64,000 nucleotides of DNA. Source: a bacterium (lineage in GTDB: Bacteria > Campylobacterota > Campylobacteria > Campylobacterales > Sulfurimonadaceae). Below the pieces are notes generated by a model. That model was not told the DNA's origin. It made no database searches and worked only from the letters and a program-made list of their open reading frames with translations. The stretch lies in NCBI GenBank assembly GCA_018822665.1, contig JAHJJX010000036.1, positions 1 to 64,000 on the forward strand, in the 5' to 3' direction. The position numbers and the translations under genes were made by a program. The first letter of the stretch is position 1; every line of letters starts with the position of its first letter. Below, piece by piece: positions 12,681 through 17,225 of this stretch.

Positions 12681-12902
12681 ATGAGAGATTTTCACTCTAT
12701 TATAGAGAAGTTGAAACTATATTTATCGACAAGAAAAAATATAAAAATATTGGACAAAGACGTTGCGCATGCACTTCAAATTTCACAAGCAAACTTTGCT
12801 ACCATAAAGAGAAGAAATTCAATTCCGTATGAAAGCATTTTACATTTTTGCAAAAGAGAGGAACTTTGCTGCAGTGAAATATTTTTTGATAAAAGCAGTT
12901 AA
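12681..12902 (+). CDS. Small helix-turn-helix protein, CI-repressor-like
   Basis: 73 residues from the ATG at 12681, which has AAGGAG seven bases upstream; an in-frame ATG at 12639 would add 14 residues with no ribosome site. The helix-turn-helix reads KDVAHALQISQANFATIKRRNSIPY, like the N-terminal domain of phage CI-type repressors, followed by a short tail with two adjacent Cys. There is no oligomerisation or peptidase domain. It is a probable DNA-binding regulator of unknown target. Its stop overlaps the convergent dnaX stop by four bases. Confidence 0.65.
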   Translation: MRDFHSIIEKLKLYLSTRKNIKILDKDVAHALQISQANFATIKRRNSIPYESILHFCKREELCCSEIFFDKSS

Positions 12903-14584
12903 ATTTTAGACTGTATCGTTATTTTTGTCGCTTCAAATAATTCTATCGCTTTTTTAACCATCGGCTCTTCTTTGATGTTGACTCCATCAATCTCTTTTGT
13001 TGATTCATCGCTTTGAGAGCAGTTTGTCACACAGCTTGCACTTCCTCCAATCTCCGCATCTTCTATCATTGAAGTGCTTTGGGCATGCGCCATGAACGGT
13101 TGTTCATTTTTTTTTTCTTCAAGCTCTTGAGTGCAAGCAATCCCTTTAATCTGGGTTTCAAAGCCAAAAAGTTCTCTAACTAATTGTTTGATAGCAGGAT
13201 AACCATGTTTTAAAACTTGTTTGCACTCTTCGTCCGCACAACTCTCCCAGGTTAAAATGCCGTTTTCATACGAAATAAAATGAACACAGCGGATAAAACA
13301 CTCACCGAGTTCATAATTTCTATCTTTGATATTTGCAATGAGTTTGTGAAACATCTTGGCATGTGGAACTTCTTCGGCATGTGGAACTTCTTTGGCATGT
13401 GGAACTTCTTTGGCATGTGGAACTTCTGCTTCAGTCTTGGCGGGGGCGATGGTTTCGTTAATTGTCTTTGTTTGTGGCGGAGTTTGTATATTTACACGTG
13501 AGAGCTCAGGTCTTTGAATCTCTTTTTGCAAAGATTCTATCATTTGGTCAATCTCTTTGATGCGAAGAGCTTCAACCATTTTAAAAAATATCAATGAAAG
13601 GACAAAAGCACCATCCGCATTGATACTAAAAAGATATTTTGAATCACTAAGAATTCTAAAAAATCTATCTAAAACCAAGGTTGAAAACAGAGCGTCTTGA
13701 TTGTACATACGCTCTTTGAGGTAAGCAATAAGCTCGTCTACAACCATTTCCGCTTCATAATCTTCTAAAGTTTTGGTGTATTGAACAAGAAGGGCATAAT
13801 CTTTTGAAAACACTGCTTTAAAAAGTTCTGTAATAAAGTTAGGGTCAACAAGCCCTAGCATATCTGTAACCGTTTGTACATCCACGTGGTTTTTGGAGTA
13901 AATTATCGCCTGGTCAAGCAAGGTGAGCGTGTCTCTTAAGCTTCCGCTTCCGCTTCTTGCAAGTATCTCCAGCGCATCCGTCTCATACTCTATTTGCTCA
14001 AGATGAAGGATGTGTGCGAGATGCTCAACAATTTTATTCGAAGCGATACTCTTAAATCTGAAATGCTGGGTACGACTTAAAATAGTTGCCGGAAGTTTGA
14101 GCGGGTCTGTTGTCGCCAATATAAATTTAACATATTTTGGCGGTTCTTCAAGCGTTTTAAGCAAAGCATTAAAAGCCTCTTTCGTGAGCATGTGGACTTC
14201 ATCAATGATGAAGATTTTAAATCTTGCAGAAGAGGGTTTGTATTTTGTCTGTTCTATCAAATCTCTAATATCATCTATTTTTCTTGATGATGCGGCATCC
14301 ATCTCTACTATGTCCATGTGACGGTTTTCAAGTGCCAAAGTACAGTTTTGACAAACTCCGCAGGGCTTATGCGTCATACCTTTTTCACAAATGAGAGCTT
14401 TGGCAAATATGCGTGCCGTAGATGTTTTTCCGCTTCCTCGAAGACCTGAGAAAAGATACGCATGAGAGAGTCTGTTGGAATCAAGTGCAAGTGAAAGTGT
14501 TTGTGTTATTGTGTCTTGTCCTATCAGCTCATCAAAGCTGGAGGGTCTGTATTTTCTTGCTAAAACTTGGGAACTTTCTTTCAC
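12899..14584 (-). CDS. dnaX: DNA polymerase III subunit gamma/tau
   Basis: 561 residues. The AAA+ clamp-loader core shows Walker A GLRGSGKT (47-54), the four-Cys zinc site C66/C75/C78/C81, Walker B IIDEVHML (DEVH at 128-131) and sensor-type LATTDP and SRTQHF. After about residue 360 comes a poorly conserved linker and a tau-like tail. The linker carries four tandem hexapeptides EVPHA(K/E), codons 386-409, encoded by four 18-bp units of the dispersed word. Expansion of a repeat in a flexible linker should be tolerated. A further near-copy (GCATGTGGA preceded by A) is at about 14190 in the AAA+ core. No internal frameshift site like that of E. coli dnaX was noticed. Confidence 0.95.
   Translation of the reverse strand: MKESSQVLARKYRPSSFDELIGQDTITQTLSLALDSNRLSHAYLFSGLRGSGKTSTARIFAKALICEKGMTHKPCGVCQNCTLALENRHMDIVEMDAASSRKIDDIRDLIEQTKYKPSSARFKIFIIDEVHMLTKEAFNALLKTLEEPPKYVKFILATTDPLKLPATILSRTQHFRFKSIASNKIVEHLAHILHLEQIEYETDALEILARSGSGSLRDTLTLLDQAIIYSKNHVDVQTVTDMLGLVDPNFITELFKAVFSKDYALLVQYTKTLEDYEAEMVVDELIAYLKERMYNQDALFSTLVLDRFFRILSDSKYLFSINADGAFVLSLIFFKMVEALRIKEIDQMIESLQKEIQRPELSRVNIQTPPQTKTINETIAPAKTEAEVPHAKEVPHAKEVPHAEEVPHAKMFHKLIANIKDRNYELGECFIRCVHFISYENGILTWESCADEECKQVLKHGYPAIKQLVRELFGFETQIKGIACTQELEEKKNEQPFMAHAQSTSMIEDAEIGGSASCVTNCSQSDESTKEIDGVNIKEEPMVKKAIELFEATKITIQSKI
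13358..13429 (+). repeat. Four 18-bp tandem units, each containing GGCATGTGGAA
   Basis: Units start at 13358, 13376, 13394 and 13412 and are nearly identical (the word followed by CTTCTTC, CTTCTTT, CTTCTTT, CTTCTGC). They lie in the dnaX linker and encode EVPHAK repeats on the minus strand. This is local amplification of the dispersed word, not a CRISPR: there are no spacers. Confidence 0.95.
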
Positions 14585-14628: not shown

Positions 14629-14991
14629 TTAAAGGATTATCAAAGATTCAAGAAGAGAACTCATAGCAGTGTTATTTTCAGAATTTTTAGCAACTTTTTT
14701 TTGGAGGGATAAAATAGAATTTATCTCGCTTGCGGATCTGTTTTTTACCGTATTTTGGACAATCAGCAAAGAGGCGCTTACAGTTAAAAGAGGAAAGTTT
14801 TTGGTATTATTGTCCCTGTCTTTTGCCGTGATATAGCCTTTTTGCTGATCTTCTGGTGAATAAAAAGCTCTTACGTCCTGCGTGAATTTTTTTATAATAG
14901 AGGACATTTTTTCTATATATATTTTTTCATTTTGATTTTCATTCTCGTATTTTATCGCTGTAAAAAAGTCATCCCCCCCCAATGTGCGCAT
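14629..14991 (-). pseudogene. C-terminal GGDEF part of the EAL-CBS-GGDEF protein, out of frame
   Basis: This frame opens at the G run and gives GGDDFFTAIKYENENQNEKIYIEK and onward, which is the second half of a GGDEF domain and its C-terminus. It has no ribosome site of its own, and the ATG at 14991 falls inside the GGDEF domain. With one G fewer in the run at 14973-14980 it joins the upstream frame as AHIGGDDFF. Read as a detached fragment it is not functional. Confidence 0.8.
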
Positions 14992-16408
14992 TAAAATAAG
15001 GGTATACCAAATATTTTTTCATCAAAGCGGCAAAAAGTAATATGACTCGGTCTCCGCTTCTAAAGCCGTAAACATCATTAAAAGCTTTGAAGTTGTCCAA
15101 ATCAAAATAGCATAGCAGATAGGAATGAGTGCTATGAGTAACTTCGTCAATGTATTTTTCTATCATTGTGTTTCCGGGAAGTTTTGTAAGGGGGTTTTGT
15201 TCCAGTGCTAACTTGATATTTTGCTCATTCATGATAGAGATAATGGCGCGTGCAGATAAAAAGCCGTAATATCGTGAATCTTTTGTGATGATGAGTCCAA
15301 CCGACACCGGATTATTCGAGAAAAGTTCGATAAGGGTAGAAAGGGTACTGCCTATATCGGCTACCCCGCAGTTCCTAATGAGAGATTTGAGTTTGGATTT
15401 ACTTGCGCTTTCATTTAAAAGAAGCGCTCTTCCGTAAGGAGAATACAAATACGATTTAATCTCACTTTCAAGAAGTATCCCTACAGGCTCATTCATCGAA
15501 TTAATTACGGGCAAGGCGGTTGTTTTTTCATTTTTTTGAAAATATTCTATGACGGAATTCATTTTAGATTTAAAATGTATAGGCTCTTCTTTGTCCAAAT
15601 AGGCTTCTATCTGATATTCACTTTTTTCCATCCGTTTGTCGTTTTGAATTATATATTGTATATGCTCATATTCTTTTGTAATGTCAGCCGTATTGAGTGT
15701 AGGTTTTTTGATGAGATAACCCTGTGCTAAATTACAACCTATATCTTTACATGTTAATAGTTCCGCTTTAGTTTCAATCCCCTCGGCAACAACATTAATC
15801 CCTAGCTGCACGGCGATACTTACAATGTTTTTTACAATGAGTCTTTTTTTGAAATCTTTTTCAATATCCGTTAAAAAAAATCTATCTACTTTGATAATAT
15901 TGGGTGTTGTTTCATAAAGGAGTTTAAAGCCGGAATAACCGACTCCAAAGTCATCGATAGCAATACAAAAATTTTCATCTTGATAATGGCGGATTATTTT
16001 TTCCATGTTACATTCGCCTGATAACTCGTGTCTTTCGGATATCTCAAAGCAAATATTGTCTTTTTTAATATTGCAGTTTTTGAGTATTTGAGTGGTATTT
16101 CCATGTGAAAAATCGGGCATCTCAAAAAGGCGGTTATCCAAATTGTAAAATAATTTTATTTTTTTGTAATGCCCGATGGAGGTAAATTTACGAATTGTTT
16201 TTTCTCTCAGAGCCAAATCAAAAGTATAGAGAATATTATCCTCGTATACTTTGTCAAAGAGATCAAAAATTGATTCAAATCCTACCTCTTGAAAGTTTCT
16301 AAGAAGTGCTTCTACTGCAAAAAGTTTACCGGTATGTATATTGATGATAGGTTGAAAAGCAATATCTAATATTTTTAAATTTTCAATCCATTGTTGCGGT
16401 AATTGCAT
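14969..16408 (-). CDS. EAL-CBS-GGDEF c-di-GMP protein, truncated at a G8 run
   Basis: The N-terminal EAL domain is well kept: VEALLR (EAL 33-35), N90, E122 (FEISER), DDFG (152-155), K173 (IIKVDRFF) and E209 (VAEGIET), so phosphodiesterase activity is plausible. Residues about 265-370 look like a pair of CBS domains. A GGDEF domain begins near residue 405 (NPLTKLPGNTMIEKY) and is cut off at AHIGGG-stop, right in its signature motif, by a run of eight G. Seven G would restore AHIGGDDFF and a protein of about 592 residues. The present allele would make a phosphodiesterase without cyclase domain. The signature is GGDDF, a slight variant of GGDEF. Ribosome site is weak. Confidence 0.8.
   Translation of the reverse strand: MQLPQQWIENLKILDIAFQPIINIHTGKLFAVEALLRNFQEVGFESIFDLFDKVYEDNILYTFDLALREKTIRKFTSIGHYKKIKLFYNLDNRLFEMPDFSHGNTTQILKNCNIKKDNICFEISERHELSGECNMEKIIRHYQDENFCIAIDDFGVGYSGFKLLYETTPNIIKVDRFFLTDIEKDFKKRLIVKNIVSIAVQLGINVVAEGIETKAELLTCKDIGCNLAQGYLIKKPTLNTADITKEYEHIQYIIQNDKRMEKSEYQIEAYLDKEEPIHFKSKMNSVIEYFQKNEKTTALPVINSMNEPVGILLESEIKSYLYSPYGRALLLNESASKSKLKSLIRNCGVADIGSTLSTLIELFSNNPVSVGLIITKDSRYYGFLSARAIISIMNEQNIKLALEQNPLTKLPGNTMIEKYIDEVTHSTHSYLLCYFDLDNFKAFNDVYGFRSGDRVILLFAALMKKYLVYPYFNAHIGGG
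14973..14980 (-). repeat. G8 homopolymer (C8 on plus strand) at the GGDEF frameshift
   Basis: Eight G on the coding strand encode the two Gly of the GGDEF motif plus two surplus bases' worth of frame. G8 stops translation at once (GGA TGA); G7 restores the frame. Poly-G runs of this size are the usual phase-variation switches of Campylobacter and Helicobacter, but a single-base sequencing error would look the same. Confidence 0.7.
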
Positions 16409-16478
16409 TTTTATACCATTCCCTAAATTGGCTTTTAGAACGAAATATTATAGTGTCAATGTTGCATTTAGGTTACAT

Positions 16479-17225
16479 TTATACTAAGTTAAGCCATTTT
16501 TTAGCGACATTTCTAAGCGCTTCAGGATTTTCTGAGGCAAAGAACTTGAGCTCTGGATTTTTGTATCGTTTTGGGAAACTGAACTCTCTTTCCAAGTATT
16601 CAACGATTGCGTCTCCTGAGTGGATTAAAAGTGTATCTTTTCCAAAATATTTTTGTATCTCTTGTGAGATAAGAGGAAAGTGCGTACATCCGAGGATGAT
16701 GGCATGTGGAACTTCTATCTCTTTAAAATAATGCCTAAAGGCCGCCTGAAGAATTTCTCCATTGTAAATTTCTTCTTCAACAATAGGGACAAAAAGTCCG
16801 GTAGCTTTCGTTTGAAGATTTTTATAACCCAGGGCATGAAGACCTATTTCATAAGCTTTGGAATTGATAGTTGCTTTTGTTCCAAGGATAAGAATATTGG
16901 AATTTTTTTCGCTAAGTGCATTGACAGTGGCTAAAACACCTGAATCAACCACTCCGATAATCGGGCATGTGGAATTTTCTCTCATCTCTTCAAGCGCATA
17001 CGCACTTACGGTGTTACATGCGACTATGATGAGGTCAAGTTCAAAATTTTTGAAAAATTCCACTGCTTCGATTGCATAACGAACGATAGTATTTTTATCT
17101 TTTATGCCGTAAGGAACACGCGCGGTGTCTCCAAAGTAGACGATTTCTTCAAAAAGATTATGGCTCAGCAGAGATTTAACAACAGTTAAACCGCCGATAC
17201 CGCTGTCAAATACACCTAGTTTCAT
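16479..17225 (-). CDS. murI: Glutamate racemase
   Basis: 248 residues, the usual length. It makes D-glutamate for peptidoglycan. Signatures: GVFDSGIGGLTV (D6, S7), PYG, catalytic VACNTVSA (C70) and ILGCTHFPLI (C180, H182). Two copies of the dispersed word fall inside it: one giving EVPHA just before the second catalytic motif, the other read as STC at residues 85-87. The stop of rho lies one base upstream of its start, so rho and murI are probably co-transcribed. Confidence 0.95.
   Translation of the reverse strand: MKLGVFDSGIGGLTVVKSLLSHNLFEEIVYFGDTARVPYGIKDKNTIVRYAIEAVEFFKNFELDLIIVACNTVSAYALEEMRENSTCPIIGVVDSGVLATVNALSEKNSNILILGTKATINSKAYEIGLHALGYKNLQTKATGLFVPIVEEEIYNGEILQAAFRHYFKEIEVPHAIILGCTHFPLISQEIQKYFGKDTLLIHSGDAIVEYLEREFSFPKRYKNPELKFFASENPEALRNVAKKWLNLV

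Follow-up and report, generated by a model that had tools for sequence, protein, structure and literature searches.

A run of eight G at the GGDEF motif splits an EAL-CBS-GGDEF gene: a probable accident of synonymous codons and slippage

Introduction

Within the 64,000 nucleotides of bacterial DNA that we analysed (hereafter, the window), a minus-strand gene flanked by murI (16479-17225) and dnaX (12899-14584) occupies two reading frames, and the frames part at a run of G residues inside the codons of a GGDEF motif. Does such a run mark a switch that selection has built into a c-di-GMP enzyme, or is it an ordinary frameshift, or an error in the assembly? An earlier note on this DNA had favoured the first of these answers. 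If true, phase variation at a homopolymer would here act within the catalytic motif of a second-messenger enzyme, which would be rare, and in a free-living relative of Campylobacter.

Results

The frame break and its arithmetic

The join reads GCG CAC ATT GGGGGGGG ATGAC on the minus strand, with exactly eight G and no more. This G8 (14973-14980; Table 1) lies inside the gene and is as long as the runs of at least 7-8 G/C, in or just before a gene, that characterise poly-G contingency loci. After the first frame closes, the second frame of the gene, ending at 14629, reads on as GGDDFFTAIKYEN. With seven G, the join would become CAC ATT GGG GGG GAT GAC and would encode HIGGDD(FF), as does the intact orthologue in L031, a MAG from a sulfidic cave that bears the label Sulfuricurvum and is the nearest relative identified. 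The length of the run sets the frame: G8 closes it, and the intact relative has a length equivalent to G7. That this otherwise conserved gene is split by G8 is real in the assembly, and on these points the earlier note was accurate: it had described a frame ending AHIGGG-stop with GGDDFF continuing in another frame, had placed the run correctly, and had calculated that G7 would reopen the frame (as G10 would too). The domain order that it proposed, EAL-CBS-GGDEF, is also supported.

Table 1. Positions of the split gene, its domains and the surrounding high-identity tract in the window
Feature	Position	Strand	Description
G8 homopolymer within GGDEF motif codons	14973..14980	minus	exactly eight G, ATT GGGGGGGG ATGAC
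First frame: EAL domain, CBS region and first half of GGDEF	14969..16408	minus	479 aa, C-terminal NAHIGGG-stop (ORF list)
Second frame: remaining half of GGDEF, GGDDFF onward	14629..14991	minus	120-aa ORF with GGDDFFTAIK; frame other than the first
EAL phosphodiesterase domain	15701..16369	minus	Pfam match, residues 14-236, E 2.3e-44
CBS (Bateman-like) region between EAL and GGDEF	15250..15620	minus	approximate boundaries; Pfam CBS at 285-321 and predicted fold
High-identity tract shared with L031	~14635..16508	minus	gene and upstream region; mostly 94-100%, 87-89% over last ~150 bases

Domains and the predicted product

All the signature residues of an EAL domain are present (AVEALLR, NLDNR, FEISER, AIDDFG, IKVD, VVAEG and QGY), and in an alignment of 21 orthologues the corresponding columns are invariant or nearly so. 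One CBS match exceeds the Pfam cut-off in the window protein. In L031, too, CBS is recognised above the cut-off, alongside EAL and a GGDEF match that extends further. A structure model of the intact L031 orthologue (591 residues, built with the 21 orthologues; mean pLDDT 79, pTM 0.55) contains two CBS-like strand-strand-helix units and a GGDEF fold, and the window protein, by this model, may have a second CBS unit as well. When the fold of the model was searched against the PDB, the 50 matches listed were essentially all EAL-domain structures.

The GGDEF match of the window protein covers residues 406-467, corresponding to only positions 5-70 of the 161 in the Pfam profile; the polypeptide thus carries no complete GGDEF domain, which L031 and the other aligned orthologues do have in one frame. 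In the L031 model, the hairpin carrying the GGDEF motif is formed by strands 472-477 and 480-487. The stop in the window gene is predicted to fall at this hairpin, such that the short protein would lack the second strand and everything beyond it. Both FDLDNFKA-ND and GGDDF are invariant in the GGDEF domains of the aligned orthologues, and the motif takes the form GGDDF, neither GGDEF nor GGEEF, in 21 of 21. We know of no assay of c-di-GMP synthesis by GGDDF-type enzymes. The genome as a whole encodes a set of c-di-GMP proteins that is large for its size, with 48 matches to the GGDEF domain in 2.5 Mb.

Motif codons across the genus

Relatives of the protein are encoded at thirteen loci in named genomes, and nearly all of the complete orthologues that were read are intact. 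At the DNA level, L031 shares 95.9% identity with the window gene on the upstream side of the run and 94.2% on the downstream side. Its join reads CAC ATA GGG GGA GAT GAC, so that the run has the length of G7 but is broken by an A (GGGGGAG, i.e., G5-A-G). We then surveyed 135 genomes of the window's genus with a motif pattern that allowed for an optional extra base, and obtained 72 occurrences in 71 genomes. An extra base was found in 1 of the 72, that of the window; the codons GGG GGG, or an uninterrupted run, occur in 0 of the remaining 71 in the genus. From codon use, 0.85 occurrences of GGG GGG would be expected at those 71 places, as compared to the one seen among 72, and the run thus needs no selection to explain it. 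More generally, GGN-GGN-GAN motifs can reach G7 through synonymous codons alone, and finding G in a row at a GGDEF motif does not on its own point to a contingency locus.

Lesions of other kinds occur in orthologues from other species: one genome (G055) has two frameshifts and another (G011) an in-frame TAG. These independent lesions suggest a dispensable gene, subject to the same caveat of assembly error that applies to the window.

G runs in the genome

Genome-wide counts of runs were obtained by pattern searches. In the 64-kb window, G8 has a mean of 0.15 in shuffled sequences, and 11 of 100 shuffles contained at least one. In the 2.5-Mb genome (G000), G/C runs of 7 bases or more number six (four G8 and two G7), as against about 22 expected at G = C = 0.177; the four G8 compare with an expectation of 3.98 from base composition, and the searches of the 2.5-Mb genome returned no run of G9 or longer. 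As such, the G8 run is not beyond chance. The remaining three G8 runs are intergenic, making that of the window the only coding G8 in the genome, and the two G7 runs sit in frame inside purH and a napG-like gene (names that are our own reading of the translations), both of which are unbroken. The ratio of G8 to G7 (4:2) is above that predicted from base composition (P about 0.01, a post hoc and weak result), which hints at a tendency of G7 runs to grow in this genome.

The genome has no Pfam match to MutL, and its sole match to MutS_I is a protein of 1022 residues (L128, 841-3909; G000 C14) that ends in an HNH-like stretch and that we take to resemble MutS7. Given the absence of a MutL match and the presence of only this MutS7-like protein, ordinary MutSL repair seems to be lacking, and slippage may perhaps escape correction by such a system.

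Runs of G9 and longer do exist in some other members of the genus. Those inspected are mostly outside recognisable genes, the majority lying outside open frames, beside stretches of N, or near contig ends, and a genus-wide system of poly-G contingency loci was rejected on these grounds. In G025, one G11 run is shared by contigs L135 (~1786) and L136 (~1527), near their ends and in an identical context (ACTTAATTAAAAATATG11TTTGAAAACCC), indicating either a repeated element or an assembly break.

A tract shared with another species

The similarity to L031 extends over the gene and its upstream region (Table 1) and has sharp edges, one at the end of murI and the other at the stop codon of the gene; the flanking murI and dnaX are about 75-80% identical to their L031 counterparts in DNA and 76-78% in protein. 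The gene and its promoter apparently lie on an interspecies recombination tract, and the simplest reading of these identities is that homologous recombination carried the gene from one species to another. The tract suggests that whole c-di-GMP genes pass between the species of this group. In G055, an 87-base direct repeat of the 3' end of murI, 85% identical between copies, flanks the orthologous gene (L149, 1-87 and 1953-2039), as if the gene had been inserted by recombination at murI. The neighbouring dnaX contains an in-frame tandem repeat, EVPHAKEVPHAKEVPHAEEVPHAK, at about 13400-13500 of the window, where there are gaps in the alignment to L031.

Age of the break

Relative to L031, dN/dS is 0.06 in the upstream part and 0.19 in the downstream part, with dS equal in both (0.18). 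The downstream frame is 93% identical to the corresponding part of L031. It shows 9 replacement and 11 silent changes, and over 115 codons there are no stops or indels relative to L031. Its dN exceeds that of the upstream part by a factor of 3.1, which is above the median for other pairs of orthologues (1.7) but within their range (1.0-3.7), and long relaxation of the downstream half was rejected. These values point to purifying selection that still acts on the downstream part, and with that half conserved, the break is either young or a read error. The conservation fits a recent frameshift, a frequently reverting frameshift or a miscall alike.

Discussion

The most probable reading of this locus, to which we assign a probability of roughly 0.55, is that a G7 run arising by chance from synonymous codons gained one G, and that the result is an accidental break and not an evolved switch. 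The Gly-Gly-Asp of the GGDEF motif would by coincidence have come to be spelt GGG GGG GAT, which creates G7, and the sequenced clone would then have acquired one further G through the kind of slippage error that is typical of homopolymers. With the resulting frameshift, translation would stop where the GGDEF hairpin turns at its tip, and 479 residues out of about 592 would be made. This product retains the EAL phosphodiesterase and the CBS region, whereas over half of the GGDEF domain is lost, the acidic half of the motif with it. It might act as a phosphodiesterase that has escaped regulation, or it might be too unstable to persist. Loss of a G could in principle revert the break, and the gene might therefore behave as an accidental on/off site operating at a low rate. 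We infer that G8 is present in the cells and that slippage of a G7 produced it; how the truncated protein fares is inferred as well.

The length of the run is within the range that slips in C. jejuni (PMC8224891), where the rates per division are about 1e-4 for changes from 7 to 8 and about 4e-5 for changes from 8 to 7 (PMC8224891, Table 2). If a rate like the latter applies here, any large culture would contain revertants at low frequency; these, however, are a property of any such run and no sign of an evolved switch. Two observations count against this reading: the run is in the sole broken c-di-GMP gene that we found and is also the sole coding G8, and a single contingency gene would look just the same; and G8 outnumbers G7 in the genome, as described above.

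Alternatively, the eighth G may be an error of sequencing or assembly, in which case the cells carry G7 and make the whole EAL-CBS-GGDEF protein, about 592 residues long. The site of the break coincides with a G run of the greatest length that this genome has, conservation persists in the downstream half, no internal stop is reported for any other GGDEF match, and the genome is a draft in 44 contigs for which the sequencing method is unknown. On the other hand, an 8-base run is short to provoke an error under common short-read methods, the assembly kept the frame at the G7 runs of purH and the napG-like gene, and it is 99.99% complete with low contamination. We lean toward a real frameshift and regard a miscall as rather unlikely.

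It is improbable, in our estimation, that the run is a contingency locus in which slippage toggles between full-length (G7, G10) and truncated (G8, G9) proteins and thereby spreads c-di-GMP levels. The frame logic fits, G8 is long enough for switching by the standard of C. jejuni (PMC6321876), ordinary MutSL repair seems to be lacking, and c-di-GMP enzymes of C. difficile are phase-varied, albeit by a different mechanism (PMC9286219). Against it, the run is conserved neither in the genus nor in L031, the genome is not enriched in G runs, the long runs inspected in other members of the genus are mostly outside recognisable genes, and the run is distant from the 5' end, the place at which a frameshift could silence the whole protein. 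The evolved switch put forward in the earlier note is unsupported in light of the absence of the run from the 71 other occurrences in the genus, its interruption in L031 and the lack of any excess of G runs. Likewise unproven is its view of the two states as phosphodiesterase-only and phosphodiesterase plus cyclase, considering the GGDDF motif of all 21 orthologues and the effect of a C-terminal tag on PA3258 (see below). That this free-living sulfur oxidiser has newly made the Gly-Gly codons of its GGDEF motif into a slippage switch, alternating between full and EAL-CBS forms and spreading c-di-GMP levels, is very doubtful.

Transcriptional slippage at homopolymers is established in bacteria, and the conserved downstream half would be accounted for if G8 were fixed and full-length protein were still partly made, through slippage of RNA polymerase or ribosomal frameshifting, yielding a constant mix of long and short forms. 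A young break explains the conservation equally well; the arrangement is found in no relative, which leaves no conserved recoding site, and by inspection there is no slippery-site logic apart from the run itself. We consider this very improbable. Programmed ribosomal frameshifting as a conserved device was rejected, the stop being GGA TGA C, at which the tRNA reading GGA would pair poorly after a +1 slip to GAT, and the site being present in no relative. Separate translation of the 120-aa frame from the ATG at 14991 is unlikely, with no ribosome-binding sequence seen upstream, and translation resuming from the ATG that shares bases with the stop (ATGA) would run into a stop within seven codons.

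Among known proteins, Pseudomonas PA3258 and its homologue RapA provide the nearest architecture, the window gene having the EAL-CBS-GGDEF order of PA3258 (PMC12900916); neither is frameshifted, and their likeness to the Sulfurimonas proteins is at the level of architecture. The phenotypes of PA3258 are consistent with a phosphodiesterase that has residual activity as a cyclase, and a C-terminal tag led to aberrant behaviour that its authors attributed to impaired function or stability (PMC12900916). Because a mere tag already disturbed a protein of the same architecture, truncation of the window protein might, by analogy, not yield a clean phosphodiesterase. Bordetella DdpB also has two CBS domains between its GGDEF and EAL domains, and a GGDDF motif as here; it has no reported activity, and its EAL is changed to ESL, whereas the window protein keeps a proper EAL (PMC12805831).

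With respect to switching, the poly-G loci of C. jejuni resemble the window gene in that G8 inside a reading frame falls in the same toggling range (PMC6321876, PMC8224891). In Campylobacter, however, such runs are many, beyond chance and mostly of 9-10 G (PMC6321876), and those of C. jejuni recur across strains with demonstrated variation in length (PMC6321876, PMC8224891); in the window genome, both an excess of runs and recurrence at the site were looked for and not found. The closest parallel to the population effect that the earlier note imagined is PdcB of C. difficile, a c-di-GMP phosphodiesterase whose switching on and off spreads levels across a population; its mechanism, an invertible promoter that involves no homopolymer, has been demonstrated experimentally (PMC9286219).
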